Of a stretch of 64,000 nt of DNA, positions 2,031 to 27,123 are shown piece by piece; positions within the stretch are counted from its first letter, which is position 1; the number at the start of each line of letters is the position of its first letter. Origin of the DNA: Streptomyces profundus. Its GTDB lineage: Bacteria; Actinomycetota; Actinomycetes; Streptomycetales; Streptomycetaceae. A model generated the notes under the pieces. It did no database searches. It had not been told where the DNA came from and saw nothing but the letters and a program-made list of their open reading frames with translations. Position numbers and translations under genes: made by a program. The stretch is from assembly GCF_020740535.1 (NCBI RefSeq), contig NZ_CP082362.1:2232001-2296000 (forward strand), read 5' to 3'.

Positions 2031-3527
2031 TCAGGGGACGAGCTGTTGCGACCCTATGTGGGCCTCGATGTCCCCACCACCCCGCCGAAACGGCTTCACC
2101 TGGGACAGCGCTTCGGCGGCGAGCGGCACGGCGTCGGCCATGGCGAGATCGACCGCCTGGTAGACCCCGTCCCCCGCCGCCGTGGAGACCCGCACCGTGG
2201 CCAGGCCGAGGCGCCGTTGCAGCGGCGACTGGCGGATGGACACCCCGCTCACCGCCGAGTGCCGCAGCACGGACGTGACCCGGCTGAGGGCCCCGGACCG
2301 AAAGACCAGGTAGTCGCCGCGCACGCTGTGCCCCAGGGCGCGGTAGCCGGCGCAGGCAAGACCCACGGACAGCGGCCCGAGGACCAACAGGACGGGCAGC
2401 CAGACGCGTTGCCCCAGCGGCGCCACCGCCGACACACAGCCCGCCGTGGTGAGCAGCGCCCAGGTCAACCGGCGCCGCAGCGCCGCCACCGGATGGCGGA
2501 CCAACGGCTGGGCCAGCGGATCGGCGCGCAGCACCTCGGCCGCGACCCGGCGGGCCACCCGGCGCGGGCCGCGCGGCAGGATGGCCACCCCCTCGCTCCA
2601 CCAGAACACCCCCGTCGTGATGAGGCTGGTGTCCGTGGTGCCGAGCCAGCGCCACAGCAGCGGCTCGGAGAGGCTGACGCCGCGCACCCGCGACTCGTCC
2701 CGCACCACCTCCCTGGTCCTGAAGAGACCGCGGGAGGTGCGCAGCACCTCGCCCTGCTCGCCCGGCTCCCTGGTGAGCCGGAAGTGCGCCTGGCCCGTGA
2801 GGAAGGCCCCGCCCATGCCGGCCGCGCCAACCAGCACCACGGCGGCCCAGGCCACCAGGGCCGTGCGCACCGGGCCCTGCGCGTCCCAGTCGGCGAGCGA
2901 ACTCACCCAGCCGCCCACGTCCACCCCGAAGGCCCCCAGCGTGAAGAAGCCGCCCCAGAGCAGCCCGGCCGCGGTCAACAGGGCCCATACGCCGAAGAGG
3001 TTGTGGATGATCCAGCGCCAGTCGAACTCGGCCATGGCCGGCGGACGGGCCTCCTCCCGCTCCTCGGCCGGGACGCCGGTGAGCTCGGCGCGCAGCTGGT
3101 GGGCGGCCTTCTTGGAGACCGCGTCCAGCGTGAGCGCCGCCTCCGTCGTGGTGCTCGTCTGGCCGGCGCCGATGGTGAGACGACGGACGCCGGCCAGCCG
3201 GTGGATCAGCCGCGCGTCCGCGTCCACCGTGCGGATCCGCTCCCGGCTGATCGAGCGGTGGCTGCGGACCAGCACCCCGGATCTGCGCTCCACATGGCTC
3301 TCGGTGACGCGGTAACGGGTGGTCAGCCAGCGCACCAGATCCCCGAGCGCGCCCCAGACGCCCCAGGCGGCCAGGCCGACCAGCGGCATGATCGTCATCG
3401 AGCCCCGGGCGTCGAGGAAGAGGATGGCGAAGCCGCCGGGCAGCATGGACAGCACCACCCGCAGCCCGTCGGCCCAGATCAGCCTGGGGTCGAGGCGCCG
3501 CCAGGGAACGTCGCTCGGCTCGGTCAT
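2031..3527 (-). CDS. Multi-pass membrane protein with repeated bPH2 domains (YdbT-like)
   Basis: A 498-residue membrane protein. Three blocks, each a pair of hydrophobic helices followed by a bacterial PH (bPH2, formerly DUF304) beta-domain, can be seen. The best are RVTESHVERRSGVL at about residue 67, FRLTREPGEQGEVLR in the middle and VRGDYLVFRSGALSR near the C-terminus. This matches YdbT of Bacillus, which is encoded with YdbS; the YdbST pair is linked there to membrane or antimicrobial-compound resistance. The ATG at 3525-3527 is chosen because it overlaps the stop of the upstream gene as ATGA (3524-3527), which indicates translational coupling. The exact biochemical role is unknown. Confidence 0.85.
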   Translation of the reverse strand: MTEPSDVPWRRLDPRLIWADGLRVVLSMLPGGFAILFLDARGSMTIMPLVGLAAWGVWGALGDLVRWLTTRYRVTESHVERRSGVLVRSHRSISRERIRTVDADARLIHRLAGVRRLTIGAGQTSTTTEAALTLDAVSKKAAHQLRAELTGVPAEEREEARPPAMAEFDWRWIIHNLFGVWALLTAAGLLWGGFFTLGAFGVDVGGWVSSLADWDAQGPVRTALVAWAAVVLVGAAGMGGAFLTGQAHFRLTREPGEQGEVLRTSRGLFRTREVVRDESRVRGVSLSEPLLWRWLGTTDTSLITTGVFWWSEGVAILPRGPRRVARRVAAEVLRADPLAQPLVRHPVAALRRRLTWALLTTAGCVSAVAPLGQRVWLPVLLVLGPLSVGLACAGYRALGHSVRGDYLVFRSGALSRVTSVLRHSAVSGVSIRQSPLQRRLGLATVRVSTAAGDGVYQAVDLAMADAVPLAAEALSQVKPFRRGGGDIEAHIGSQQLVP

Positions 3528-4021
3528 GTGGCGTCCCCTGGCGTGCGTCGGGTGATCTCGGTGAGCCGGTCGGCGGCGGCGCTCGCCGTGTCGGGGGCCA
3601 GGCCCCGGATCGAGATGGCTCCGCTGGACGAGGCCGTGGTGACCACCAGGGTGGTCAGGCCGAGCAGTTGGTCGAAGGGGCCGCGCACCGTGTCCACCGT
3701 CTGTATGCGGGATATCGGCGCTATCCGCCACTGCTGGACCAGCCAGCCCTCCCTGGCGAAGACCGCCTCCTCCGTGCTCTCCCAACGATGCACCCGATAG
3801 CGCCAGTTCGGCATGACGAGGACGTAGGCCGGGATCAGCACGGCGGCGGCGACCAGCAGCGGACCCGTCCAGGGCCGGGCCGACGACCACACCGCGTGCA
3901 GCAGCCCCAGGACGCCCGCCACCGGAAGCGACCAGGCCAGCGCGCGCGCCACCCAGAGGGCCACGGCGCGCCGCTCCACGCGGTGCTCCGGCTCGCGGAG
4001 CGGAACGGGATGATTCATCAT
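3524..4021 (-). CDS. bPH2-domain membrane protein (YdbS-like)
   Basis: A 165-residue protein with two transmembrane helices at about residues 20-70 followed by one bPH2 domain. The domain opens with YRVHRWESTEEAVFAREGWLV and contains the family's RIQTVDTVRGP turn. It is coupled by a 4-bp ATGA overlap to the larger bPH2 protein, reproducing the YdbS-YdbT gene pair. Two ATG codons are adjacent (4016-4018 and 4019-4021). The first overlaps a perfect palindrome at 4021-4037, so the mRNA is probably leaderless or nearly so, and repressor binding there would block transcription directly. Confidence 0.8.
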   Translation of the reverse strand: MMNHPVPLREPEHRVERRAVALWVARALAWSLPVAGVLGLLHAVWSSARPWTGPLLVAAAVLIPAYVLVMPNWRYRVHRWESTEEAVFAREGWLVQQWRIAPISRIQTVDTVRGPFDQLLGLTTLVVTTASSSGAISIRGLAPDTASAAADRLTEITRRTPGDAT

Positions 4022-4058
4022 GGGACACAGTGTCCCACAACTGGACGCGGTGTTCCAG
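4021..4058. promoter_or_regulatory. Tandem TetR-type operators
   Basis: A perfect 17-bp palindrome, TGGGACACAGTGTCCCA (4021-4037), lies at the start codon of the bPH2 pair. Four bp on is a second, imperfect copy at 4042-4057 that reads TGGAACACCGCGTCCA on the minus strand. Both fit TGGrACACnGyGTyCCA. Given the divergent TetR gene at 4197, these are the likely operators of that repressor. This assignment is inferred from position and symmetry. Confidence 0.7.
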
Positions 4059-4196
4059 CTTTTTCCGCCGACCGCCCGCCGACCCCCCGCCGGCCCCCGC
4101 CGGCCTCACCGCCCTCGCCGCGCCGCCCAACCGTCGCCCCGGGCTTCCCGAACCGGCGCCCCTGACCCGGGCGACCGCCGGTCTTACGATGGGGGC

Positions 4197-4805
4197 ATGG
4201 CAGCACCGGTCTCCTCCTCGGGAACGCACTCGGGAACGATCGCCCGCACCCGCCGGGCCATCCTGGACGCGGCGGTGATGGTGCTCAGCCGGGATCGCTC
4301 CGCCCCGATGTCGGAGATCGCCAAGGCGGCCGAGGTCGGCCGCAGCACGCTGCACCGCTACTTCCCGGACCGGTCCGCGCTGGTCAAGGGCCTGTACGCG
4401 CAGTGCGCCGAGATCATCGAGCGCGCCGTCAGGGATCTCGACCTGGACCAGAGCGAGGTGCCCGACGCCTTCCGCCGCCTGGTCGCCGCCCTGTTCGAGC
4501 ACGGGCGGTTGGTCGACTTCCTCTTCAACGAGCCCCAGCACACCGACGGCGCCTGGGATGACGACCAGTGGGAGCGCGCGCACGTCCCGATGGCCATGTT
4601 GTTCGTCCGTGGCCAGCGGGAGGGCTATTTCGCGGCCGAGTTCGACGCCGACTGGTTCATCCGGGCGCTCTGGTACATGCTGTCGGCCGGCTGGGAGGCG
4701 AACGCCGAGGGCCTGCCCCGGCATCTCGCGCTTGAGCGGGTGGTCAGGACCCTGACCGGCGGCGTGGTGGCGCAGCCCGAGCGCCCCGGGCCGGTCCACG
4801 ACTGA
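4197..4805 (+). CDS. TetR/AcrR-family transcriptional repressor
   Basis: A 202-residue regulator. An N-terminal TetR helix-turn-helix spans about residues 15-62, with the motif MSEIAKAAEVGRSTLHRYF followed by a Pro-Asp-Arg turn, and an all-helical ligand-binding domain follows. The ATG at 4197 is chosen because it gives the usual 10-15 residues before helix 1. The open frame extends upstream to 4020, but that part lies over the operator region. It is divergent from the bPH2 gene pair, whose start codon is covered by TetR-like palindromes, so this is probably the repressor of that operon. Confidence 0.85.
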   Translation: MAAPVSSSGTHSGTIARTRRAILDAAVMVLSRDRSAPMSEIAKAAEVGRSTLHRYFPDRSALVKGLYAQCAEIIERAVRDLDLDQSEVPDAFRRLVAALFEHGRLVDFLFNEPQHTDGAWDDDQWERAHVPMAMLFVRGQREGYFAAEFDADWFIRALWYMLSAGWEANAEGLPRHLALERVVRTLTGGVVAQPERPGPVHD

Positions 4806-4900
4806 CCCGGCCGGATCACGACCGGCCGCCCGGGCCCGGCCCCCCTCTGGTGGGCGAAAACACAGGGCGGTCCTCGTAACACGGTCGTAAGGTGGCGAGC

Positions 4901-6115
4901 ATGATGCAGGTGATCCAGTCAAGCAAGCTCGCAAATGTCTGCTACGAGATCCGGGGCCCGGTTCTTGAGGAGGCACAGCGGCTTGAGGCAGCAGGACACC
5001 GCATCCTCAAGCTCAACACCGGCAACCCGGCCGCCTTCGGTTTCGACTGCCCGCCCGAGATCCTGGAGGACGTGCTCCGCAACGTCGGCGAGGCCCACGG
5101 CTACGGCGACGCCAAGGGGCTGCTCTCCGCCAGGCGCGCGGTCATGCAGCACTACCAGACCAAGGGGATACAGCTCTCGGTCGAGGACATCTACCTGGGG
5201 AACGGCGTCTCCGAGCTGATCCAGATGGCGATGCAGGCGCTGCTGGACGACGGGGACGAGGTCCTGGTGCCGGCGCCCGACTATCCGCTGTGGACGGCCT
5301 CGGTGGCGCTGGCCGGCGGCACGGCCGTGCACTACCGCTGTGACGAGCAGTCGGACTGGATGCCGGACATCGCCGACATCGAGCGGAAGATCACCGACCG
5401 CACCAGGGCGCTGGTGGTGATCAACCCCAACAACCCGACGGGCGCGGTGTACGACGAGGAGATGCTGCGGCAGCTCACCGAGCTGGCCAGGCGGCACCGG
5501 CTGGTGGTCTGCTCGGACGAGATCTACGACCGCATCCTCTATGACGGCGCCACCCACACCTCCACCGCCGAGGTCGCGCCCGATCTGCTGACCCTCACCT
5601 TCAACGGCCTCTCCAAGAACTACCGGGTGGCCGGATTCCGCTCCGGCTGGCTCGCGGTCTGCGGTCCCAAGGAGAACGCGGGCAGCTATATGGAGGGCCT
5701 GACCATCCTGGCCAACATGCGCCTCTGCGCCAACATGCCGGCGCAGCACGCGGTGGCGGCGGCGCTCTTCGGCCGGCAGTCGATCGAGCAGCTGGTGTTG
5801 CCCGGCGGGCGGATCAAGGAGCAGCGGGACGTGGCGCACCGCCTGCTGACCGATATCCCCGGCGTCACCTGCGTCAAGCCCAAGGGGGCGCTCTACGCCT
5901 TCCCCCGGCTCGACCCCAAGGTCTACAAGATCAAGGACGACCGGCAGATGGTCCTCGACCTGTTGCGGGCCGAGAAGATCATGATCGTGCACGGCACGGG
6001 CTTCAACTGGCCCGAGCCCGACCACTTCCGGGTGGTCACACTGCCCCCGGTTGACGAGCTGGCGGACGCGGTGGGCCGGATCGGCCGCTTCCTCGACGGC
6101 TACGCGCAGTTCTGA
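4901..6115 (+). CDS. PLP-dependent aminotransferase, AlaT-like
   Basis: A 404-residue fold-type-I class I/II aminotransferase closest to the AlaT (alanine-glutamate transaminase) group. Visible motifs are LNTGNPAAFGF near the N-terminus, NPNNPTGAVY, the Asp/Tyr cofactor contacts in VVCSDEIYDRI, and the Schiff-base lysine in FNGLSKNYRVAGFRSGW at about residue 240. The ATG at 4901 has a good ribosome site (AAGGTGG, 6 nt away). An in-frame GTG at 4892 is less likely. The gene runs into four 9-bp repeats and a strong terminator. Confidence 0.85.
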   Translation: MMQVIQSSKLANVCYEIRGPVLEEAQRLEAAGHRILKLNTGNPAAFGFDCPPEILEDVLRNVGEAHGYGDAKGLLSARRAVMQHYQTKGIQLSVEDIYLGNGVSELIQMAMQALLDDGDEVLVPAPDYPLWTASVALAGGTAVHYRCDEQSDWMPDIADIERKITDRTRALVVINPNNPTGAVYDEEMLRQLTELARRHRLVVCSDEIYDRILYDGATHTSTAEVAPDLLTLTFNGLSKNYRVAGFRSGWLAVCGPKENAGSYMEGLTILANMRLCANMPAQHAVAAALFGRQSIEQLVLPGGRIKEQRDVAHRLLTDIPGVTCVKPKGALYAFPRLDPKVYKIKDDRQMVLDLLRAEKIMIVHGTGFNWPEPDHFRVVTLPPVDELADAVGRIGRFLDGYAQF

Positions 6116-6150
6116 CAAACATGAGAAACACGATAAACATGACAAACATG
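6115..6150 (+). repeat. Four tandem 9-bp repeats over the stop codon
   Basis: Four consecutive 9-mers, ACAAACATG, AGAAACACG, ATAAACATG and ACAAACATG (consensus AnAAACAyG), start on the last base of the aminotransferase stop codon. They are strikingly AT-rich for this genome and lie directly before the terminator hairpin. Function unknown. Confidence 0.8.
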
Positions 6151-6162
6151 GTGCATGGTGAT

Positions 6163-6204
6163 GGCCCCTCCTCGGTGCGTCCGAGGAGGGGCCTTCGCCC
6201 GTTT
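6163..6204 (+). terminator. Intrinsic terminator after aminotransferase gene
   Basis: A perfect 13-bp stem, GGCCCCTCCTCGG (6163-6175) with CCGAGGAGGGGCC (6181-6193), and a 5-nt loop, followed after TTCGCCCG by a run of T. The aminotransferase and pckG are convergent, so it may work for both. Confidence 0.85.
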
Positions 6205-6274
6205 TGATCAGCCTCGCCCTACAAACGGTCGATGGCCGTCAACAGGCGCTCATCAGCAGCTCATCGGCAACTGA

Positions 6275-8137
6275 TCAACCGGCGGCCCGTTCGTGCCCCT
6301 CGGCCGCGTCGAGCCGCCGCACCAGCTCACGGTGCTCGACCCACAGGCCCTCGGGGGTGTGGTCGCCGTAGGTGCGCAGGTGTTCGGGGATCAGCTCGGC
6401 CTCGGCACGCCAGGCGTCCATGTCCACGTCCAGCAGCGTCGACAGCTGCTCCGGGGTGAGCCCGAGCCCCTCGATGTCCAGCTCTCCGGCCGCCGGCAGC
6501 AGCCCCACCGGCGTGGCCCGTCCGGTCGCCTCGCCGTTGAGCCGGTCGACGATCCACTTCAGCACCCGGATGTTCTCGCCGAACCCTGGCCAGACGAAGT
6601 CGCCCCGCTCGTCCTTGCGGAACCAGTTGACGTAGAAGATCCGCGGCAGCTTCGCCGGGTCGGCGGCGCGTTCGCCCATGGCCAGCCAGTGCGCGAAGTA
6701 GTCGCCCATGTGGTAGCCGCAGAACGGCAGCATGGCGAACGGGTCACGGCGCAGCTCGCCCACCGTGCCCTCCGCCGCCGCCGTCTTCTCCGAGGCCACG
6801 TTGGCGCCGAGGAAGACGCCGTGCCGCCAGGAGAGCGACTCGGTGACCAGCGGGACCGTGCTCGCCCGCCGGCCGCCGAAGAGAACGGCCGAGATCGGCA
6901 CCCCCGCCGGGTCCTCCCACTCGGGCGCGATGGTGGGGCACTGCGCCGCCGGCACGGTGAACCGGGCGTTGGGGTGCGCCGCCGGGCGGCCGTCCGCCGG
7001 CGTCCAGGGCTGGCCGCGCCAGTCGGTGAGGTGGGCGGGGGCCCGTTCGGTCATGCCCTCCCACCAGACGTCGCCGCCGTCCTCGGTGAGCGCGACATTG
7101 GTGAAGACCGCGTTGCCCCAGAGGGTGCGCATCGCGTTGGCGTTGGTGTCCTCGCCGGTGCCGGGCGCCACCCCGAAGAAGCCGGCCTCGGGGTTGATGG
7201 CCCGCAGCTGTCCTTCCTCGTCGAAGCGCATCCAGGCGATGTCGTCGCCCACCGTCTCCACCCGCCAGCCGGGCAGCGCGGGCCGCAGCATGGCCAGGTT
7301 GGTCTTGCCGCAGGCGGACGGGAAGGCCGCCGCGACGTAGTGCGGCCGGCCGCAGTCGGGCGGGGTGAGCTTGAGGATCAGCATGTGCTCGGCGAGCCAG
7401 CCCTCGTCCCTGGCCATCACGGAGGCGATGCGCAGCGCGTAGCACTTCTTGCCGAGCAGCGCGTTGCCGCCGTAGCCGGAGCCGAACGACCAGATCTCGC
7501 GGGACTCGGGGAAGTGGGAGATGTACTTGGTCTGGTTGCACGGCCAGGCCACGTCCGCCTCCCCCGCCGCCAGGGGAGCGCCGACGGAGTGCACGGCCCG
7601 CACGAACGGGCCGTCCTCGCCCAGCTCGTCCAGCACGGCACGCCCCATCCGGGTCATGGTGCGCATGGCGGTGACCACGTACGCGGAGTCGGTGATCTCC
7701 ACGCCGAGCGCGGAGAGCGGCGAGCCGAGCGGGCCCATGCAGAACGGGACCACATACATGGTCCGGCCGCGCATCGAGCCCCGGAACAGGCCGTCCTTCC
7801 CGGTGAAGACGCGCCGCATCTCGTCGGGGGCCATCCAGTTGTTGGTGGGCCCCGCGTCCTCCTCGCGTCGCGAGCAGATGAAGGTGCGGTCCTCGACGCG
7901 GGCGACGTCGGTGGGGTCGGAGGCGGCGTAGTAGGAGTTGGGGCGCCGGGTCGGGTCGAGGGCGCGGAAGGTGCCCCGGGCGACCAGCTCGGCGCACAGG
8001 CGGTCGTACTCCTCCTCGGAGCCGTCGCACCACACGACCTGGTCGGGTTGGGTCACCTCGGCGATCTCGGCCACCCAGGCCAGGAGATCCCGGTGTCGGG
8101 TGGGGGCGGTCGCGGCGACGGGAGCTGGGGTCAGCAT
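6275..8137 (-). CDS. pckG: Phosphoenolpyruvate carboxykinase (GTP)
   Basis: A 620-residue GTP-dependent PEPCK, which converts oxaloacetate and GTP to PEP, CO2 and GDP in gluconeogenesis. The family's P-loop with the hyper-reactive cysteine, FPSACGKTN, is at about residue 285. [18 protein letters not shown] and the Mn-binding region around [13 protein letters not shown] are also intact. The ATG at 8135-8137 has a clear AGGAG 8 nt upstream, and an in-frame ATG at 8242 lacks one. It is divergent from an MFS gene across a 270-bp region with an unusual inverted repeat. Confidence 0.97.
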
Positions 8138-13731: not shown

Positions 13732-14160
13732 TCAGGCGGTGGCGGGCCGCTGTCGGGGGAGCGTGGCGCGTCCCATGGCGTGGTCCACCGCGATCTCGAT
13801 CACCACCCGCTCCGGGTCGGGCGTCGGCCTGCGCCCGTAGCGTCGCGCGTAGCGGTCGACGGCGTCCGCCACGGCTGCCTCGTCGGTACGCACCGCCGCC
13901 GTTCCCTCAAGCGTCGCCCAGCGCCCTCCGTCGATCTGGCAGACGGCGACCCGGGCGGGGCCCGCACCGCTCAGGTTGGCGACCTTCCTGCTGGTCCGGC
14001 GGGTGATGACGCGCGCCATCCCCGCGTCCGCGTCGACCGTCACACCGACGGGCACCACATGCGGGGTTCCGTCCGGGCGCAGGGTCGTGAGGGTGCACAG
14101 ATGTCTCTCGGTCCAGAAGGCCAGGTACTCGCTCCCCTGGCGGAGAAGTGCGTTGGGCAT
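13732..14160 (-). CDS. PPOX-class (split-barrel, F420/FMN-binding) protein
   Basis: A 142-residue split-barrel flavin/F420-binding protein of the pyridoxamine-5'-phosphate-oxidase-like class. The family pattern is ERHLCTLTTLRPDGTPHVVPVG at residues 18-39, a middle strand RVITRRTSRKVANL, and ARVAVCQIDGGRWATLEGTA. The family includes F420-dependent reductases; the cofactor cannot be fixed by eye. It is 72 bp downstream of the ALAD-like gene on the same strand and may be the last gene of that operon. Confidence 0.8.
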   Translation of the reverse strand: MPNALLRQGSEYLAFWTERHLCTLTTLRPDGTPHVVPVGVTVDADAGMARVITRRTSRKVANLSGAGPARVAVCQIDGGRWATLEGTAAVRTDEAAVADAVDRYARRYGRRPTPDPERVVIEIAVDHAMGRATLPRQRPATA

Positions 14161-14232
14161 GGCGGAAGCGTACCCACGGGCCCACCACGGACGGGCGGCG
14201 GTGGGCTGGCCTCCGCCCGTCCGCGGTGGGGG

Positions 14233-15336
14233 TCAGACGCCGAGCAGGTCGCCCCGCAGATAGCTGATGGCGTTGCGGTCGATGATCCGGCCGCCGTGGG
14301 GGCCGGCCGCCGCGAGCCAGTTGTGCCAGGACTCCTCCAGCCTGGCGCGCGCCAGGCGCAGCCCGTCCACGGCGGCCAGCACGCCGAGGGCACGGGTCGT
14401 GCCCGAGACGGCGTAGCCGTACAACTCCAGCTGTGCCAGGGACTTCTGAAGCGTCTCCTGGGAGTCCAGCACCTCCCTGACCAGGCCGGCCGCAGCGCCG
14501 GTGAGAGGTGGCAGGCCCGGGTCGGCCCGTTCGAGGGAGCGCAGCAGACGGCCGGTCAGCTCCTCGTGCTCGATATGGCGTGCCACGTCGAGGGTGGCGT
14601 GGGCGTTCTCCAGCGGTTTGGTCACCGAGACCTGGGTGCCCTGGAAGGCGTCGAGCAGCGACCAGAGCGTCATCTCCGCGAGGTTGCCCGGGAGGATCTT
14701 CTGCCCGGTGTCGCGGTGGTCCTCGTCGAGGTAGACATAGGCGGTGCTGGTCTCGCTGTTCTGGGAGAACGAGTACAGCCGGGTGGCGCCCCGCACCGAG
14801 TCGACGCCGGCCCTGGTGTGCGACACCTCAAGCGGCAGCCGGCCCAGCGTGACGATGCCGTGCGCCCCGGCGGTCGCGACGCCGGCGGCGGTGTCGCGCA
14901 GCAGCGTGTAGGTGGCGGGGATGTCGAGGCGGTCGCCGTCGTCGCGCAGGCCCCAGCTGCCGTCGGGGTTGAGCGCGAGGGCGAAGGGGTCGACCGTGCA
15001 GCGGACGCCGGGCGGTGCCTCCCGCACCAGCCGGGCGATGGCCCGGATGTGCCGGTCGAGCCGCGCGGGCGTCGGGTGTTCGTCGGAGCCGGTGTCGCAG
15101 ACGCGCAGCACGAACTCGCCGATGCCGAGGGCGTGGCCGTCCCGGACGCGTTCCACGGCGGCGGCGACGCCGTAGCTGTGCCAGCCGGGGATCGCGTCGA
15201 CGGGCTCCCGGCGCTCCTCGTCGAGGCCGAGGTCGACGTCGACCGGCTGGGCCAGCCGATCGGGGGTGAGTTGGGTCTGTGAGGTGTCATGGAGTCGGCG
15301 TCGGGCGTCAGCGGGGAGCCTTCTTGGCGGCGTCAT
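14233..15336 (-). CDS. ALAD-fold (porphobilinogen synthase-like) enzyme
   Basis: A 367-residue protein that aligns along its length with delta-aminolevulinate dehydratase (HemB) but is far diverged. Matches include the PVDAIPG region (residues 45-51, HemB 'AMPG'), the LDIPATYTLL block, SLLDAFQGTQVSVTKP with Lys240 at the HemB P-site Schiff-base lysine, and YGYAVSGTTRALG at the HemB YxVSGEYAM strand. The second HemB lysine (MSYSxKF) is replaced by Gln192 in YSFSQNSE. The Cys cluster of zinc-type HemB is absent, and about 60 extra residues lie between Lys240 and the VSG strand. It is unlikely to make porphobilinogen. The start at 15336 has an AGAGGA site and overlaps the MFS gene by 29 bp, so translation is coupled. 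Confidence 0.75.
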   Translation of the reverse strand: MTPPRRLPADARRRLHDTSQTQLTPDRLAQPVDVDLGLDEERREPVDAIPGWHSYGVAAAVERVRDGHALGIGEFVLRVCDTGSDEHPTPARLDRHIRAIARLVREAPPGVRCTVDPFALALNPDGSWGLRDDGDRLDIPATYTLLRDTAAGVATAGAHGIVTLGRLPLEVSHTRAGVDSVRGATRLYSFSQNSETSTAYVYLDEDHRDTGQKILPGNLAEMTLWSLLDAFQGTQVSVTKPLENAHATLDVARHIEHEELTGRLLRSLERADPGLPPLTGAAAGLVREVLDSQETLQKSLAQLELYGYAVSGTTRALGVLAAVDGLRLARARLEESWHNWLAAAGPHGGRIIDRNAISYLRGDLLGV

Positions 15337-16522
15337 CGTTGGTTCCTCTGGGGTGGGGAGGGACGGAGGGTGCGTCCGTGCCGGTCAGCCGGTTCAACAG
15401 CAGCAGCACGAGGGTGGAGCCGACGCAGAAGGCGACGGCGATCCAGAAGAGGGCGGGGCGGTAGCCGGAGACGGTGAGGGGGGCGAGGATGCCCACCAGG
15501 GAGCCGAGTTGCATCACGCCGGCGAAGAGGCCGGCGCCGGCCGGCAGTCCGCCCCTGACCAGGCCGGCGAGGACCACCATCCCCAGCGACTGGAGCGCGG
15601 CGGCGAAGACGGCGAAGATCGTCTGCGAGGCCAGCAGGGAGCCGAGGGACGTCCAGACGGCGGTGAGGGTGAAGGACAGCGCGCCGGCGAGCGCCGCCAG
15701 GGCGAGCAGCCGCGCCGCCGGGTGACGCTCGCCCGCGCGGCCGAGCCAGGGCAGCACGGCGAGTTCGACGAGCGCGGTGAGCATGAAGAGGACGCTGTTG
15801 AGCCGTGGGTCCCAGCCGGAGTTGACGACGAACAGCGGCAGGTACACCAGGCGCAGGCTGTCCGCCGCCTTGAGGAGGACGATCGCCAGCACGCCGACGG
15901 CCAGGGCGGGGCCGACGCCCGACCGGCCGGCGCTCGCCGCCGGGGCGGGGGGCGCGGGCGCGGGGGCCGAGCGCCGGTCGAGGGTGGCGAGGACGGCAGC
16001 GCCGAGCAGGAGGAGAACGGCGGCGCCGACGGGGGGCCAGTCCGACCACCACTCGGTCAGGGAGCTGGAGCCGGCGAAGACGGCGACGCCGGCGACATAG
16101 CCGGCCACGGCGATCCACCGGGTGCGGGCGGCGAGCACCGCGTCGGAGAGCCCGGCGGCCCCCGGGGTGGTCTGCAACCGTCGGAGGATCAGCGGCAGCG
16201 AGACGGCGCCCGCCATGGAGAGCGCGCCGCCCAGGCACACCAGCGGCAGCGCGTGCCCCGTGCTGACCAGGGCCGTCCCGACGGCCCCGGCCAGCAGGGC
16301 GGGCGTGAGCAGCCGGGGCGCGTGCCGGAGCGCCACCGGGCGGCTGGAGGAGAGGGCGAGGGTGAACGCGATCAGCGAGTTGACGACGAAGAACAGGGCG
16401 ATATCGCCCTTGGCGAAGCCGGCGGAGTCCAGCGCCAGGGGGTAGCCGACGCTGATCACGCCCGTCATCGCGGACACGAACAGCAGGCACAGGCCGAGCG
16501 GGGAACGCAGCAGGAGAGCCAT
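15308..16522 (-). CDS. MFS transporter
   Basis: A 404-residue, about 12-TM major facilitator. The layout resembles sugar-efflux (SET/SotA) permeases: a first helix with SAMTGVISVGYPLAL, a conserved acidic/basic loop after helix 2-3, and a central variable Ala/Pro-rich loop at about residue 185. It is coupled to the ALAD-like gene by a 29-bp overlap, so it probably exports the product of that enzyme set or imports its precursor. Short direct repeats directly upstream (16532-16570) may hold the control region. Confidence 0.8.
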   Translation of the reverse strand: MALLLRSPLGLCLLFVSAMTGVISVGYPLALDSAGFAKGDIALFFVVNSLIAFTLALSSSRPVALRHAPRLLTPALLAGAVGTALVSTGHALPLVCLGGALSMAGAVSLPLILRRLQTTPGAAGLSDAVLAARTRWIAVAGYVAGVAVFAGSSSLTEWWSDWPPVGAAVLLLLGAAVLATLDRRSAPAPAPPAPAASAGRSGVGPALAVGVLAIVLLKAADSLRLVYLPLFVVNSGWDPRLNSVLFMLTALVELAVLPWLGRAGERHPAARLLALAALAGALSFTLTAVWTSLGSLLASQTIFAVFAAALQSLGMVVLAGLVRGGLPAGAGLFAGVMQLGSLVGILAPLTVSGYRPALFWIAVAFCVGSTLVLLLLNRLTGTDAPSVPPHPRGTNDDAAKKAPR

Positions 16523-16531
16523 CTTCCGTCC

Positions 16532-16570
16532 GTCCAGATTCCGTCAGGTTCTGTCAGATGCCGTCAGATT
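16532..16570 (-). promoter_or_regulatory. 10-bp direct repeats upstream of MFS/ALAD-like genes
   Basis: On the minus strand the sequence reads AATCTGACGG, CATCTGACAG, AACCTGACGG and then AATCTGGACGG, one unit per helical turn, ending 10 bp before the MFS start codon. Direct heptamers at helical spacing are typical of activator sites such as SARP boxes (11-bp spacing is usual). That reading is an inference. Confidence 0.5.
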
Positions 16571-16591
16571 CGGCGTAGGTGCGGCCCGGAT

Positions 16592-16668
16592 CTGGTCTGG
16601 GCCCGGCCTGGGCCCGGTCTGGGTCCGGTCTGGGTTCGATCCAGGTCCGGCCCAGATCCGGTCCGGGG
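16592..16668. repeat. 11-bp tandem repeats, CCGGyCTGGGy
   Basis: About seven units of 11 bp, clearest at 16603-16635 (CCGGCCTGGGC, CCGGTCTGGGT, CCGGTCTGGGT) with decayed copies on both sides. They fill the gap between the GT2 gene and the MFS gene. Non-coding. The embedded GGTTCGATCC only resembles a tRNA T-loop. Confidence 0.75.
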
Positions 16669-16715
16669 CGCGAGGGGCCCGGTGCGTTCGCGCCAGGGGC
16701 GCGACGGGCGGCCCG

Positions 16716-17759
16716 TCAGCTCAGGAGCGTGTGGTACTCGATGTGGCGGAGGCCGTTGCGCTGTATCTCCAGATCGAGACCCGAGCCGTGGAGGCCGTCG
16801 ACGATCCGCAGCGGCACGCCGTCGTGCAGCAGCGTCCTGGCGTGGTCGGCGTCGGCCGGGGAGAGGACCGTCAGGGTGCGGGCCGGCGGCGCGGGCGCCG
16901 GGACGCCGTCGATACGGCGCAGCTCGGCGTCGAGGCGGCGGAAGGAGTCCATCCACATCTGCCCCGGGGAGGACCCTTTGCCCGAGGGGTAGTTGTCGAT
17001 GAGCCGGACGGCCTGGGCGTGCGGCTCGGGGTGGGCGGCCAGGAAACGGTCGCGGTTGGCCGCCCACTCGGCGACCCGGTCGGCGTCCGTGCGCACCGCG
17101 TGGTGCCGGTCCCACGTCCAGGCGAGAGGGTTGTGCACGGTGGGGACGCCGGCGGCCCAGGCCCGGTAGCCGAAGTCGTGGTCCTCGTAGCCCCAGCCGA
17201 CGAACATATCGCTGTAGCCGCCGAGCTGACGGTAGACATCTGCCGGCACGGACAGGTTGCAGCTGAAGGGCAGATACCAGGCGGCGGCGATACGGGCGTA
17301 GTTCTGCGAGTACTCGGCGGTGACCCGGGTGCGCACCTCGGGCCGCCAGCGGCCGGCGTCGGACGCGTCGAGATGCCGCCGGTGGCCGGCGACCACGGCC
17401 CCGGGGAGCGCGCGTTGCCAGCGGAGGTGCTCGGCGACCCAGTGCGGCGGGGCCTCCTGGTCCGCGTCGAGGAAGGCGAGATGGCGCCCGCGCGCCTCGG
17501 CCGCGCCCTCGGCGCGGGCCGCCGCGCGGTTGCCCGCGCCCCTCCGGCGGATCAGCGCGAGCGGGACGCCGCCGGCCAACTCGGCGAGGTCGGCGCGGAC
17601 GGGCGGCGTCGAGCCGTCGTCGACGGCGACGATCTCGTAGGCCCCTTCGGTGCGTTGGGCCGAGGCCCCGAGGGAGGCGACGAGCGCGCGCAGCGCTGGC
17701 TCGTCGTCCCGGACGATGACGACGACCGACAGCTCGGGCGCCGGCCCCCGCTCAGCCAC
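16716..17759 (-). CDS. Family 2 glycosyltransferase
   Basis: A 347-residue GT-A fold glycosyltransferase. The N-terminal nucleotide-binding strand is ELSVVVIVRDDEPALRALV, the metal site is FLDADQE (DxD, about residue 97), and the acceptor-side motif GWGYEDHDFGYR at about residue 195 is that of polysaccharide/chondroitin-synthase-like GT2 enzymes (the catalytic-base ED). No membrane segment is seen, so it is probably cytosolic. Its start overlaps the end of the next glycosyltransferase by 8 bp (17752-17759), and the two are surely co-translated. The sugar donor and acceptor are unknown. Confidence 0.85.
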   Translation of the reverse strand: MAERGPAPELSVVVIVRDDEPALRALVASLGASAQRTEGAYEIVAVDDGSTPPVRADLAELAGGVPLALIRRRGAGNRAAARAEGAAEARGRHLAFLDADQEAPPHWVAEHLRWQRALPGAVVAGHRRHLDASDAGRWRPEVRTRVTAEYSQNYARIAAAWYLPFSCNLSVPADVYRQLGGYSDMFVGWGYEDHDFGYRAWAAGVPTVHNPLAWTWDRHHAVRTDADRVAEWAANRDRFLAAHPEPHAQAVRLIDNYPSGKGSSPGQMWMDSFRRLDAELRRIDGVPAPAPPARTLTVLSPADADHARTLLHDGVPLRIVDGLHGSGLDLEIQRNGLRHIEYHTLLS

Positions 17760-18948
17760 GACGCCCTCGCGTCAGCGCCGAGAGGGAGGCGAACGCCAGG
17801 ACGTGCGAGGCGAGTTCGGCGGCACCGTCGCGGCCGGCCAGCACCTCGCCGACCTCCCGCGCCCTGCGGGCCAGGCCCTGGTCGCCGAGGAGACGGGTGG
17901 CCGTGGGCACGAACTCGTCGGCGACCGCGTCGGCCGGGAGGATCTCGCCGGTGCCCAGGGAGACCGCGCGGGAGGCGTTCCACTCCTGCTCCGCGTGGCC
18001 CGGCAGCGCCAGCAGTGGTGTGCCCAGGCAGAGCGCCTCCATGGTGGAGGTGTGTCCGCCGTGGGTGACGACCAGATCGGCGGCCCGCGTCCACGCCATG
18101 CTGTCCTCGGTGTACGCCATCACCACGTCCGCGGTCCGCTCCCGGAGCCGCTCGGGCGGGATGTTGGGGCCCGTGACCAGCACGGTGTGCGCGGGGACCG
18201 CGCCGAGCCTGGCGGCGATGGTGGTGAGCGACCCGTAGCCCTGGGCCGTGCCGCCGAGGCTGACGTACACCAGCGGAACGTCCGCCGCGACGCCGAGCCG
18301 CTCGCGGGCCTCGGCGCGGGACGGCGCGCCGTCGGGGGCCTCCTTCAACACCGGGCCCACATGCCGGATCTCGGACAGCGTGCCCAGCGCCGTGGCCGAC
18401 TCCCGGGCGGCGATACCGGAGAGCGGATCGAACCGCGACCAGTCCGGGATGTAGAGGACATCGCCCAGGACGCGCCGCGCGGTCTCCCGGGGCACGCCCA
18501 GCTCGACCAGTTGGGGCACCACATCGCGCAGCACCTGGGGGAAGGGGAACTCGAAGAACCCCGAGTTGACGATCCAGGCGGCCGGCACGCCCTCCAGGGC
18601 CGCCGACACCGCGCCCGTGACCCGGAAGTCGCTGACCACCATGTCGGGACGGAACTCCGCTATCGCGGCGCGCTCCTCGGCGAGGCAGGTGGTGAGGTAG
18701 TCGGGATCGGCCAGCCGGATCCGGCCCCCGGGGGCCGGCGGGGGCTCCTCGGCCGGCTCGCGCGGCGGGAACGGCGGCAGCTCCGTCAGCGGGAACGAGT
18801 CCAGACCTTGGGCCTTCATGATGTGCCGCGCCGGCTCCGCCGTGCCGACCAGCACCTCGGCGCCGGCGGCGACCAGGGCGGAGCCCACCCGCGCGGTCCG
18901 CACCACATGGCCGAGCCCGTGGAAGAACGTCAACAGCAGAACCCGCAT
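17752..18948 (-). CDS. UDP-glycosyltransferase, MurG/macrolide-GT type (GT1/GT28)
   Basis: A 398-residue GT-B glycosyltransferase. The N-terminal FFHGLGHVVRTARVGSALVAAG is the MurG/GT28 glycine loop, and the C-terminal nucleotide-sugar site is VVTHGGHTSTMEALCLGTPLL followed by LPGHAEQEWNA. Such enzymes glycosylate natural products or lipids. It is first in the leftward set GT-B, GT2, MFS, ALAD-like, PPOX. No biosynthetic core gene (PKS, NRPS, terpene) is present nearby. Confidence 0.85.
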   Translation of the reverse strand: MRVLLLTFFHGLGHVVRTARVGSALVAAGAEVLVGTAEPARHIMKAQGLDSFPLTELPPFPPREPAEEPPPAPGGRIRLADPDYLTTCLAEERAAIAEFRPDMVVSDFRVTGAVSAALEGVPAAWIVNSGFFEFPFPQVLRDVVPQLVELGVPRETARRVLGDVLYIPDWSRFDPLSGIAARESATALGTLSEIRHVGPVLKEAPDGAPSRAEARERLGVAADVPLVYVSLGGTAQGYGSLTTIAARLGAVPAHTVLVTGPNIPPERLRERTADVVMAYTEDSMAWTRAADLVVTHGGHTSTMEALCLGTPLLALPGHAEQEWNASRAVSLGTGEILPADAVADEFVPTATRLLGDQGLARRAREVGEVLAGRDGAAELASHVLAFASLSALTRGRRG

Positions 18949-23584: not shown

Positions 23585-26500
23585 TCAGGAGGTGGGGGTG
23601 ACTCCGATGATGTCTCTGGCCGCTCGTTGGGGGACCAGGCCCAGGCGCCAGGCCGGCCAGCCGTCCTCGGGGCCCTGGCCGCGTTCCAGCATCAGCGCGT
23701 AGGAGTGGGCCGCGTCCGCGAGCCGGAGGTCGCGCAGGGGGTGTTCCGCGCGGACCAGCTCGGCCAGCTCCTGTTGGGCGACGGCCTGGCCCACCTCTGA
23801 GCCGCCGGGCGAGGCCAGGGGGAGCAGCGTGCAGCGCAGGAACTGTGCCCAGTCCGCGCCGCGTTGGTCGGGGCCCTCGCCGCCGTAGCCGGCGGTGAAG
23901 AGCGCCAGCGCCTCGTCGGCGAGGCGCAGCGCCTCGCCCGTCCGTTCGTTCCCGGCCTCGATCACCGCCAGTTCGAGGGCCGACCAGGCCTCGCCCTGGG
24001 CGACTCCGATCCGCTCGAAGTCCCGGCGGGCGTCGGTGAGCAGCTGCCGGGCGAAGCCGCTGTTGCGCAGCGAGCCCGTGCTCTCCGCGCGCATGTCGCG
24101 GGTGACCCGGGCCGAGTGGTGTCGGGTGCAGGCCAGGCCGTAGACGTCGCGCATGCGGTTGAACATGGTGCGGGCCCGCTCCAGGGTGCGTACCGCGCCC
24201 GTGGCGTCGCCGGCCTCCTCCAGGGCCTGGCCCAGGTAGTAGAGGGTCCACGCCTCGCCGCGCGCGTCCTCCGTGTCCTGGTGTCTGGCCAGGGCCGCCC
24301 GCAGCTCGTCGACGGCGGCGGCGTCCTCGCCGTCGTGGACGCGGGCCAGGCCCAGCTCGCTCATCGCCCAGGCCACCCCGCGCACATCGCGGGACTGTTC
24401 ATAGAGGTCCAGCGCGAGGCGCAGTTCGCGCTCACCGTCGCGCAGCTGGCCCTGCCAGAGCATGGTCTGGCCGAGCTGGAACCTCGTCCATGCCTCACCG
24501 TGCACGCTGCCGCTGTTCTGGTGCAGCGGCAGGGCCTCGGCGAGCAGTCGGCGGGCGGAGCGCACCCGGCCGCACTCCCGTTCGACCGCGGCCAGGGCGT
24601 GCAGGGTCCAGGCTCGGTCGCCGGCCAGGTTCTCGGCCTGCTGGAGCTCCAGCGCCTGGCGCAGCTTCTCGCCGGCCTCGTGGAGCTGTCCCTGGTGTTG
24701 CAGGGTGATGCCCAGATCGCGCAGGGCGCGGGCAGTGCCGGCGTCATGGTGGGCCTGCTGGTAAAGCGAGACGACCGAGGTGAGCGTGGACCGTGCCTTG
24801 TCCAGCTCACCCAGCTGCCGGGCCGCGACGCCCGTGCGCCAGCGCACGGAACGCGTCAGCAAGCCCTGGTCGACCGCCTCCGCCAGCTCGTTCAGCTCGC
24901 CCAGGCGGTAGAGGTCACCGCGCAGCAGGCAGTAGTCGCAGAGGGCGCCCAGCAGGTGTTGCACGGCCTGGCGGTCCACCCGCTCGTCGGCGTAACGCAG
25001 CGTGGAGGTGATGAAACTGGTCTCTTCGTCCAGCCAGCGCAGCGCCGCGTCCAGCGAGGTGAAGCCGTGGCCGCCGGCCGCTGCCGGCAGCAGATCGGCG
25101 CGGGTGGACGTCTTGCCGTCGACCAGGCGGATCACCGTGTCGGCCAGCTCGGCGTAGCTGCGGATCAGGCGTTCCTGGGCGGCGGAGACCTGCCGGTCGC
25201 TGTCCTCCTCGTACATTCTGGCGCGGGCGAACCTGCGCACCAGCTCGTGCAGGCGGTAGCGGTTGCCCCGCACCCGGCGGAGGAGCCCGGCCTGGGCCAG
25301 CGACTCCAGCTGGCCGGCGGCCTCCTGCTGGCCGACGTCCAGCAGAGCGGCGGCGGCGCGGGCGCCGAGGCTGGCGCGGCCGGCCAGCGCCAGCCGGCGC
25401 AGCAGCCGGCGCCCGGCCTCGGGCTGGTCCGCGTAGCGCAGGCCCAGGACGCGCTCGGCCGGGTCGGCCACGGCCTCGCCGGCCTCGCCGTCCGGGCCGG
25501 GGGCCGGGGTGTCGAAGGCCGCCAGGTCGTCGGCGAGCGCGCCGGGGGCCCGCGTGTCCAACGCGGAGCCGGCCAGCCGGAGCAGGATGGGGCGGCCGGC
25601 GCACAGCTCGTTGATCCGGCGCCAGCTGGTGTCGTCCCTGGGCCCGGGGCCGATGACGCCGCCGTCGGTGACGGAGGCCCGCAGCAGCTCCTCGGCCGCC
25701 TCGTCGTCCAGGGCGTCGATGGACAGGTGGTGGACCGAGGCGGGGGACGAGGGCCGGATGTCCATCGGCTCGGCCGAGGTGACCAGCACCAGGGAGGGGG
25801 AGCGGGCCGGGATCAACGTGCAGACCTGCTCGGCGTCGGTGGCGTCGTCCAGGATGAGCACCACCGGGAGGTCCGTGAGGTGCTGCTGGTAGCGCTCGAC
25901 GAGCCGGCCGAGCTGCTGGACGCCGGCGGCCCGGCCGGCGCCGTCGCGGAAGAGCAGCTGGTCGCGGGGGGCACCCAGGCGGTTCATCAGGTGCAGGATG
26001 GCGTCCCTGGTGGGAAGCGGATCCTGGCTCTGACCCCGCAGGTCCACCAGGCAGGCGCCGCGGAACAGCTCGCGGGTCTCCTGGGCCGCCCAACTGGCCA
26101 GCGTGGTGCGGCCGGAGCCGGAGGCGCCGTGCAGCACGACCACGGTGGGGTGGGTGTCGCTGCTGGCGCGGTCGCGGTTGACCCACTGGACGATCTGGGT
26201 GAGCTGGCTGCGGCGGCCGATGAAGGGGCGCTCCAGATCGGCCAGGCGGTCGAAGGACTTGCCGACCACGGAGCGGCCCCGGGCCTCGGCCGCCCGGTCC
26301 CTGGGGCGCTGGCGGCTGGAGCCGCGTTCGGCGCGCAGCTGGCGGCGGCGCGGGGCGACCGCCCGCTGCTGCTCCAGGTAGGGGCGGATACCCCGCACCT
26401 CGACCGCGGTCAGCCAGGCCAGCCGCAGCTGTTCGACGCCGCCCGGCTGGTGGCGGCTGCCGGCCTGTCGCTCGGCGGACCAGAAGTGGGCGAGCAGGGC

Positions 26501-26887
26501 CTGGAGGACGAACCCGAGCACGGCGGCGGCGGCCACGATGGCGCCGTCGCCGAAGGCGACGCCGGCCGAGTCGTTGAGGGAGCCGACCAGCAGCACGGTG
26601 GCGATGGCGGCCGAGACGACGGCGGCGGCGAGGCCGCCCAGCACCCTCGGCGCGAAGCGGTCGGCGAGCCGGCTGGGCGCCGCCTCCTGCTCGGCCTCGA
26701 CGAAGGCGGTGTACTCCTCACGCGCCGGGCGGATGATCTCGTCGATCGAGGAGCGGGCGCGTTGGAGGAGCTGGTCGGCCGAGGAGCTGCCCTCGGAGCG
26801 GCGCGCCTCCTCCTGGGCCGCCCGCTCCAGCAGTCGGTCAACCTCCGTCCGGTGTCGTTCGTTGAGTGTCGCCGTCTCCACCGCCAT
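23585..26887 (-). CDS. Membrane-anchored NB-ARC/STAND ATPase with TPR repeats
   Basis: A 1100-residue multidomain protein. Residues 1-70 form a polar coiled coil, and two hydrophobic segments at about 80-105 and 112-135 anchor it. A basic linker follows (about 170-220), then an NB-ARC-type ATPase (about 225-520) with Walker A GASGSGRTTLASW and Walker B VVLILDDATDA, a winged-helix region (LHELVRRFARARMY), and about ten TPR units from 680 to 1030 (for example RALRDLGITLQHQGQLHEAGEKL). The start at 26887 has a GGAGGG site. Upstream in-frame sequence lacks family features. STAND proteins act as signal-triggered switches. No effector domain other than the N-terminal membrane part is visible. Confidence 0.85.
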   Translation of the reverse strand: MAVETATLNERHRTEVDRLLERAAQEEARRSEGSSSADQLLQRARSSIDEIIRPAREEYTAFVEAEQEAAPSRLADRFAPRVLGGLAAAVVSAAIATVLLVGSLNDSAGVAFGDGAIVAAAAVLGFVLQALLAHFWSAERQAGSRHQPGGVEQLRLAWLTAVEVRGIRPYLEQQRAVAPRRRQLRAERGSSRQRPRDRAAEARGRSVVGKSFDRLADLERPFIGRRSQLTQIVQWVNRDRASSDTHPTVVVLHGASGSGRTTLASWAAQETRELFRGACLVDLRGQSQDPLPTRDAILHLMNRLGAPRDQLLFRDGAGRAAGVQQLGRLVERYQQHLTDLPVVLILDDATDAEQVCTLIPARSPSLVLVTSAEPMDIRPSSPASVHHLSIDALDDEAAEELLRASVTDGGVIGPGPRDDTSWRRINELCAGRPILLRLAGSALDTRAPGALADDLAAFDTPAPGPDGEAGEAVADPAERVLGLRYADQPEAGRRLLRRLALAGRASLGARAAAALLDVGQQEAAGQLESLAQAGLLRRVRGNRYRLHELVRRFARARMYEEDSDRQVSAAQERLIRSYAELADTVIRLVDGKTSTRADLLPAAAGGHGFTSLDAALRWLDEETSFITSTLRYADERVDRQAVQHLLGALCDYCLLRGDLYRLGELNELAEAVDQGLLTRSVRWRTGVAARQLGELDKARSTLTSVVSLYQQAHHDAGTARALRDLGITLQHQGQLHEAGEKLRQALELQQAENLAGDRAWTLHALAAVERECGRVRSARRLLAEALPLHQNSGSVHGEAWTRFQLGQTMLWQGQLRDGERELRLALDLYEQSRDVRGVAWAMSELGLARVHDGEDAAAVDELRAALARHQDTEDARGEAWTLYYLGQALEEAGDATGAVRTLERARTMFNRMRDVYGLACTRHHSARVTRDMRAESTGSLRNSGFARQLLTDARRDFERIGVAQGEAWSALELAVIEAGNERTGEALRLADEALALFTAGYGGEGPDQRGADWAQFLRCTLLPLASPGGSEVGQAVAQQELAELVRAEHPLRDLRLADAAHSYALMLERGQGPEDGWPAWRLGLVPQRAARDIIGVTPTS

Positions 26888-27123
26888 GCGCGTGCCCTCC
26901 CCGTTCCCCGTTGAATCTCCGGTGTTCCCCGGTGGTTCTCGTCCTGTCCGCTGGCCCTCCGCCGGCGTGCGGCGGTGGTGTTCCGCCCCTGGGCGAGGGG
27001 CAGTTGTCGGAGTGGTCCCCGAGTGTGTGGTCATGACCCGGAGAGATCGCCTGCCCCGTCCGACGGGGTGTCACGCCGAATTCGACCAACTCGTTACCGG
27101 TATGTCGCGGAACGAAGGGCGCT

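Follow-up and report, generated by a model that had tools for sequence, protein, structure and literature searches.

Which reaction does an enzyme with the fold of porphobilinogen synthase (PBGS) catalyze, when its gene lies between a transporter gene and a flavoprotein gene, close to two glycosyltransferase (GT) genes? This question is raised by a locus of Streptomyces profundus, which is part of a stretch of 64,000 nucleotides (contig NZ_CP082362.1, positions 2,232,001 to 2,296,000 of the forward strand) that was analyzed as a whole and is called the window in the following. The source genome is a single contig of 7.65 Mb and has its ordinary hemB at another site (438 bits). To our knowledge, the ALAD fold is tied to one reaction only, the synthesis of porphobilinogen, and the 33 HemB structure matches obtained here agree with this. 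Judged by its sequence, the ALAD-like protein of the window is other than porphobilinogen synthase and is not the HemB of the cell. We read it, with a probability of about 0.6, as a non-HemB Schiff-base enzyme that is predicted to belong to a small export-coupled pathway.

Fold and active site of the ALAD-like protein

Structure comparison of the predicted model bore out the ALAD TIM-barrel fold that had been proposed in the initial annotation of the locus, with a match to HemB structures that spans 297 residues. The protein exceeds the gathering score of the Pfam family PF00490 (ALAD; 30.2 vs 24.6 bits), with its N-terminal part (12-176) only, and does not reach the porphobilinogen synthase equivalog NF006762 (25.3 vs 297 bits). 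Furthermore, a separate hemB is present in all of the eight searchable genomes. In a tree of 31 rows, including 3 HemB sequences, the ALAD-like family is set off from HemB by a long branch (the tool warns on long branches), and its named members group by phylum. The zinc-type Cys cluster is missing, as had been noted, and is replaced by a DPF motif. This is no oddity of the family, as the same form occurs in the Chlorobium HemB 1w1z, which is labelled “plant like” by its title, and a metal-independent PBGS is described in PMC535902. For these reasons, the loss of the cluster is a weak sign of a new reaction and was set aside as proof of one. The features of the gene that are discussed below are the following:

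14233..15336, minus strand: ALAD-fold enzyme, not HemB (367 aa)
14758..14760, minus strand: codon of Asn193, in the place of the HemB A-site lysine and at the end of the modelled strand 186-193 (strand scoring, 28/28 identity, two hhalign runs, codon check)
14698..14700, minus strand: codon of Lys213, the invariant lid lysine, opposite the glutamine of the HemB Tyr-Gln pair (ungapped) or one residue past it (hhalign)
14617..14619, minus strand: codon of Lys240, the equivalent of the P-site Schiff-base lysine (ungapped register scoring and hhalign)
14416..14607, minus strand: residues 244-307, from the P-site lysine to the Y-x-V-S-G motif, holding a 45-residue insertion (alignment; helices in the model)

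With the P-site lysine as anchor, the stretch between the lid and Lys240 aligns with HemB without gaps at a score of 31, and six other registers score -20 or less. This ungapped scoring, together with hhalign, confirmed Lys240 as the P-site lysine equivalent, and it is present in 28/28 members. The loss of the A-site lysine could be upheld as well, but not the glutamine (Gln192) that had been put in its place. On the A-site strand, ungapped scoring yielded the best register for Asn193 (+6.5), followed by Ser191 (+2.0), with Gln192 at -4.9, and Asn193 stands opposite the HemB A-site lysine in both hhalign runs too, so that Gln192 was ruled out as the A-site residue. Asn193, Lys213, Lys240, Asp116, Tyr308, Ser311, Asp353, and Arg354 are identical in all 28 aligned members, and Gln192 in 27 of them; a frameshifted copy outside this alignment (L014) has alanine at position 192 and keeps Asn193 and Lys213. 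A by-eye reading of Arg354 as a stand-in for the C-terminal HemB tyrosine was not upheld, since hhalign pairs that tyrosine with Ile351. The insertion after Lys240, initially estimated at about 60 residues, comprises 45 residues in comparison to the HemB of the same genome, and the span from Lys240 to Tyr308 is of near-constant length across the family (63-74).

In HemB, the glutamine of the lid Tyr-Gln pair and the arginine in front of this pair hold the A-site carboxylate. In the ungapped alignment, Lys213 is located opposite that glutamine, residue 209 is Asp/Asn (23/28), and residue 210 is Thr/Ser (28/28), hence there is no arginine. With the one-residue gap set by hhalign, Gln212 is placed opposite the glutamine, which is retained in this alignment, and Lys213 lies one residue further. 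The second half-site is thus, as far as the alignments tell, rebuilt, which is more than the loss of one lysine. Of the 46 residues that are identical in all 28 members, 28 are found close to the C-terminal ends of the eight barrel strands, within 80 of the 367 positions (p = 6e-10 by the hypergeometric test, with windows chosen by the analyst). Such a gathering at the barrel-strand ends is expected for a working enzyme and not for a decayed copy. Sequence and model together show a new and strictly conserved residue set on the active-site face, with the P-site lysine kept, an asparagine at the A-site, and a lysine in the lid.

It might also be that the enzyme works with two lysines, whereby the lid residue Lys213 replaces the lost A-site lysine and a double Schiff base joins two carbonyl substrates, perhaps different amino-ketones, to a pyrrole unlike porphobilinogen. 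Such a role would fit the identity of Lys213 and Lys240 in 28/28 members and the position of Lys213 in the ungapped register given above (31 vs -20 or less for the six others). However, the lid place differs from the strand place, hhalign shifts Lys213 by one residue, and a lysine in this lid, which nearby is modelled at a predicted local distance difference test score (pLDDT) below 50, may simply bind a carboxylate or phosphate. We therefore consider a two-lysine enzyme rather unlikely. Lid residues 196-205 and 208-211 have a pLDDT below 50, so that the position of Lys213 is known from the sequence only. As this invariant lysine lies at or near the HemB lid glutamine in a lid of low model confidence, the former claim that the enzyme has “only one Schiff-base lysine” is not firm. 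A placement of Lys213 at the A-site itself, which had been considered as well, was not found, because strand scoring and hhalign put Asn193 there and Lys213 in the lid.

Gene neighbourhoods in Streptomyces and in other bacteria

The initial annotation had listed five leftward open reading frames (ORFs) with overlaps of 8 and 29 bp and had assigned their families, and all of this proved correct. Besides the ALAD-like gene these are:

17752..18948, minus strand: GT-B glycosyltransferase, macrolide-glycosyltransferase-like (EryCIII-like_C 36 vs 31.7 bits; TIGR01426 81 bits, cut-off 260)
16716..17759, minus strand: GT2-type glycosyltransferase (PF00535 69.6 bits, PF02709 35.8 bits) with a galactosyltransferase-like C-terminal motif
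15308..16522, minus strand: major facilitator superfamily (MFS) transporter, 404 aa (PF07690 33.7 vs 33.4 bits), with a 29-bp overlap with the ALAD-like gene
13732..14160, minus strand: PPOX flavoprotein of the F420 type (TIGR03618 96.3 vs 79.05 bits), a neighbour of the cassette

The two GT genes overlap by 8 bp, a gap of 193 bp separates the GT2 and MFS genes, and 72 bp lie between the ALAD-like and PPOX genes. The order GT-B, GT2, MFS, ALAD-like is the same in all four Streptomyces loci, which are the window, strain NBRC 109706 (L003), S. gossypii (L004), and a locus that by inference belongs to S. capitiformicae (L027). The expected link to GT and MFS genes was thus kept in 4/4 loci. In S. 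gossypii, the MFS and ALAD-like genes form one uninterrupted frame of 775 aa, and in L027 the two genes overlap at the stop of the former and the start of the latter. The flanks of L003 are like those of the window, and of the ten flanking proteins tested none has a match in L004 or L027. PPOX, originally counted as part of the set, occurs in L003, the nearest relative, but not in L004 and L027, and was dropped as a cassette member. On the sequence evidence, GT-B, GT2, MFS, and ALAD-like genes are a conserved biosynthetic cassette in Streptomyces. The GT-B protein matches the PDB structures of YjiC and oleandomycin glycosyltransferases with its C-terminal half (best stretch from residue 211). 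Scaffolds 15 and 12 of S. gossypii (L004 and L005) have an entire stretch of 21,089 bp, cassette included, in identical form, which could represent a recent duplication, a terminal repeat, or an assembly duplicate. In the window, the cassette adjoins a GreA/Mca block, and in six other genomes fetched at this block no cassette gene was detected within the 19 kb read. Some further observations concern the surroundings. The GT2-MFS gap contains short GC-rich tandem repeats of 10-11 bp (window positions 16529-16650) and is about 75 bp long in L003; the cassette of L027 has genes for a protein of the tryptophan-halogenase family (3374-4921, 450 bits) and for a regulator of the LuxR type (5093-5869) beside it; and a 1149-aa protein with NB-ARC and tetratricopeptide repeats is encoded at 23585-27034 of the window.

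The ALAD-like gene is rare. A search of 5.8 billion proteins yielded 23 matches, including the protein itself and 2 fragments, and a profile search yielded 21, none of them additional (in each, the 8000 best word-sharing candidates were scored). The Pfam ALAD label is found on 15 of the 23 matches, some members are publicly named porphobilinogen synthase, and the named sources include Streptomyces capitiformicae, Pantoea, Scandinavium, and Acinetobacter. A scan of genome contigs led to 16 loci, namely three from Streptomyces (two strains), seven from Photorhabdus (one truncated), three from Paenibacillus, and one each from Xenorhabdus indica and from metagenome-assembled genomes of Streptomycetaceae and Pseudonocardiales. 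In sampled groups, with the centre genome counted in, the gene was present in 2/392 genomes of its own genus, 1/394 of the class, and 1/396 of the phylum (5 candidates scored per genome in these three), as well as in 1/247 genomes of the order of Xenorhabdus and 1/149 of the order of Paenibacillus. Among 100 relatives, only the source genome itself matched the ALAD-like protein of the window at E 4e-245, and five others gave partial matches at E 7e-6 or weaker. No relative was found on plasmids and phages by tblastn or in viral contigs, nor in E. coli genomes by blastn with the Xenorhabdus DNA only. The cassette is patchily distributed and has probably spread horizontally. A search for co-distribution with the GT-B protein matched 1/246 genomes of the genus at E 1e-60, namely the source genome itself. 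This is a weak test, because no more than 7 candidates were scored in each genome and the 78% relative in S. capitiformicae was not among the matches.

The comparison of neighbourhoods refers to the fetched loci and leaves out Pantoea, Scandinavium, Acinetobacter, and several metagenome members. An MFS gene adjoins the ALAD-like gene or lies one gene off in 12 of 16 distinct intact loci (the window counted, L005 and L018 left out). In six Photorhabdus loci (L007-L012), the MFS gene comes next after the ALAD-like gene, at a distance of 124 bp in L007, and these MFS proteins are 93-99% alike. The only one scored (L007) is DHA2-like but under the cut-off (113 vs 230 bits). At the same place, a related MFS gene is also present in the frameshifted Pseudonocardiales contig. 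In an actinomycete contig (L006), which ends about 0.7 kb upstream of the ALAD-like gene, the ALAD-like, PhzE-like, and DHA2 MFS genes (the last above cut-off) come in this order, and then a Tn3 transposase gene on the opposite strand (6139-7686). The PhzE-like protein matches structure 3r74, which we take to be PhzE, at 1e-170, with the next structure at 2e-17. Two Paenibacillus loci (L016, L017) have a fused TrpE-clade-3 anthranilate synthase gene upstream (0.2 and 0.9 kb). In P. shirakamiensis, such a gene lies about 3.3 kb downstream, beside a PabAB-like gene and with a MATE-like gene in between (labels by eye). In each of these three Paenibacillus genomes it is the sole copy over the cut-off, and none of 14 control genomes has one; S. 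gossypii has two, off the cassette contigs, and no copy over the cut-off occurs in the window genome, in G389, or in Xenorhabdus. In Photorhabdus noenieputensis (L018, 10001-10447) the ALAD-like gene is truncated, and the neighbouring MFS gene was not found at this locus. A further gene set of Photorhabdus, upstream of the ALAD-like gene (L007, 213-7732, alike in the other loci), comprises cysteine-synthase-, argininosuccinate-synthase-, and dimethylargininase-like genes, a NodU-type carbamoyltransferase gene, and MFS-like and ATP-grasp-like genes (some labels by eye), and looks like a separate biosynthetic cluster of its own. A tie of the ALAD-like gene to these arginine/carbamoyl-type genes was not upheld, because two ORFs intervene, one of the LuxR type on the opposite strand and one of the FKBP type (by eye).

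Proposed reaction and rival explanations

For human ALAD, PMC7725820 describes that the P-side 5-aminolevulinic acid (ALA) forms a Schiff base at K252 first, before the A-side ALA binds, and for plant ALAD, Schiff bases on two conserved lysines are described in PMC6262466. The P-site lysine is kept in the ALAD-like protein and the other site is replaced, which suggests that the reaction starts as in HemB but continues with another partner. By analogy with Lys252 of human ALAD and its P-side ALA, Lys240 would bind a carboxylated substrate by forming a Schiff base with its keto or aldehyde group. The second site, rebuilt with Asn193, Lys213, and conserved arginines of the face, would hold a different partner. 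The reaction would then be a condensation, cyclization, or dehydration other than the formation of porphobilinogen. Anthranilate or a similar amine derived from chorismate, such as one like 2-amino-2-deoxyisochorismate (ADIC), may serve as the partner, because three Paenibacillus and one actinomycete, from two phyla, have a PhzE-like or TrpE-like synthase gene in the neighbourhood. These chorismate-aminating neighbours hint at an amine partner as a lead only, and an anthranilate-type partner is a tentative suggestion that we do not expect to hold. In Streptomyces, the two GTs would attach sugars to the product and the MFS transporter would carry it out of the cell. The small export-coupled pathway is probably one of specialized metabolism, to which Streptomyces would add glycosylation. 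Since the protein is not a porphobilinogen synthase and is tied to GTs and an MFS in Streptomyces, a different imine-type reaction with export is the best reading. Of the aldol or imine reaction proposed at the outset, the departure from porphobilinogen synthase is thus supported by the equivalog score, the lost A-site lysine, and the separate hemB, and the imine-type chemistry is what we infer. The glycosylated nitrogen compound that had been suggested as product is plausible in Streptomyces only; elsewhere no relatives of either GT are detectable in the fetched loci, whereas an MFS exporter recurs.

Several points speak against this interpretation. The GTs are confined to Streptomyces among the fetched loci. 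A PhzE or TrpE relative lies near the gene in only 4 of 16 loci, and in none of the Streptomyces cassette or Photorhabdus loci (tblastn). L016 and L017 are without an adjacent MFS gene. In Xenorhabdus indica, the gene lies between btuF-like and mtnN-like genes and near hemL (labels by eye), inside what resembles a housekeeping block of enterobacteria, and neither MFS and GT genes nor a gene for a chorismate enzyme adjoin it. The hemL-like gene of this locus (L013, 5278-6636; glutamate-1-semialdehyde aminotransferase, by eye) is about 3.3 kb away and probably the housekeeping copy. The MFS-ALAD fusion comes from one strain and might be an assembly or sequencing matter, and the low pLDDT of the lid leaves Lys213 to two alignments that lie one residue apart. 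Moreover, MFS genes are common, so that single adjacencies are weak. In addition, no similarity was detectable between the MFS proteins of different lineages, and some links may therefore be local. What counts is the recurrence with mutually dissimilar MFS proteins together with the MFS-ALAD fusion.

A further rival is a class I aldolase-like enzyme that provides an unusual sugar or sugar-acid unit, which is used or extended by the two GTs and exported as a sugar compound by the MFS transporter. The aldolase match of the fold may be what any such TIM barrel gives, and no GT relatives were found outside Streptomyces (tblastn, fetched loci, E up to 1e-4), which makes this explanation improbable. 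It is still less probable that the protein, as a look-alike of HemB, serves in self-protection or regulation by binding a toxic ALA analogue or haem precursor and passing it to the exporter. The adjacent exporters, the fusion in S. gossypii, and the solved complex of HemB with alaremycin 2 (2woq) would fit such a role. However, the conserved active-site face appears catalytic, and reading the Streptomyces regions by eye revealed no gene like that of ALA synthase, for which no model search was made. An ordinary or slightly altered porphobilinogen synthase, i.e., a second hemB, is hardly conceivable, since the Pfam score, the label on 15/23 matches, and some public names are outweighed by an equivalog score of 25.3 vs 297 bits, an A-site lysine lost in 28/28 members, and a separate hemB in 8/8 genomes, the first and last of which ruled it out.

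The Schiff-base enzyme of an export-coupled pathway could in its widest form represent a distinct ALAD-fold family that has no part in tetrapyrrole synthesis and whose second active-site lysine was shifted from the strand to the lid. In several phyla, including known natural-product producers, it would join a carboxylated keto compound and a chorismate-derived amine in a nearly one-enzyme pathway. The product would be exported and, in Streptomyces, also glycosylated. As a whole, this extended picture is unlikely. Among the matches listed from the open-licence PMC literature, to which the scope was limited, such a non-HemB ALAD-fold enzyme is not described. A conserved family with a rebuilt active site that apparently serves specialized metabolism would mean new enzyme chemistry on the ALAD fold and a compact, easily cloned route to a secreted compound, with four genes in Streptomyces and perhaps two in Photorhabdus.

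Comparison with known systems

With HemB (PF00490, NF006762), the ALAD-like protein shares the fold over 297 residues, the P-site lysine (Lys240), the Y-x-[VI]-S-G motif, the DPF motif of the 1w1z type, and a lid between the strands that bear the two HemB lysines. In contrast to HemB, it has Asn193 at the A-site, Lys213 in the lid at or next to the Tyr-Gln glutamine, the 45-residue insertion after the P-site lysine, and a new motif, SFSQNSET, and it scores 25 vs 297 bits. The match to class I deoxyribose-phosphate aldolase is far weaker than that to HemB, and sequence searches of the PDB gave none. The C-terminal half of the window GT-B resembles macrolide-type enzymes such as YjiC and the oleandomycin glycosyltransferases, although its 81 bits are below the TIGR01426 cut-off of 260. 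PhzE (ADIC synthase) and TrpE-clade-3 anthranilate synthase have their relatives near the ALAD-like gene in the actinomycete contig L006 and in three Paenibacillus, but not in the window cassette.

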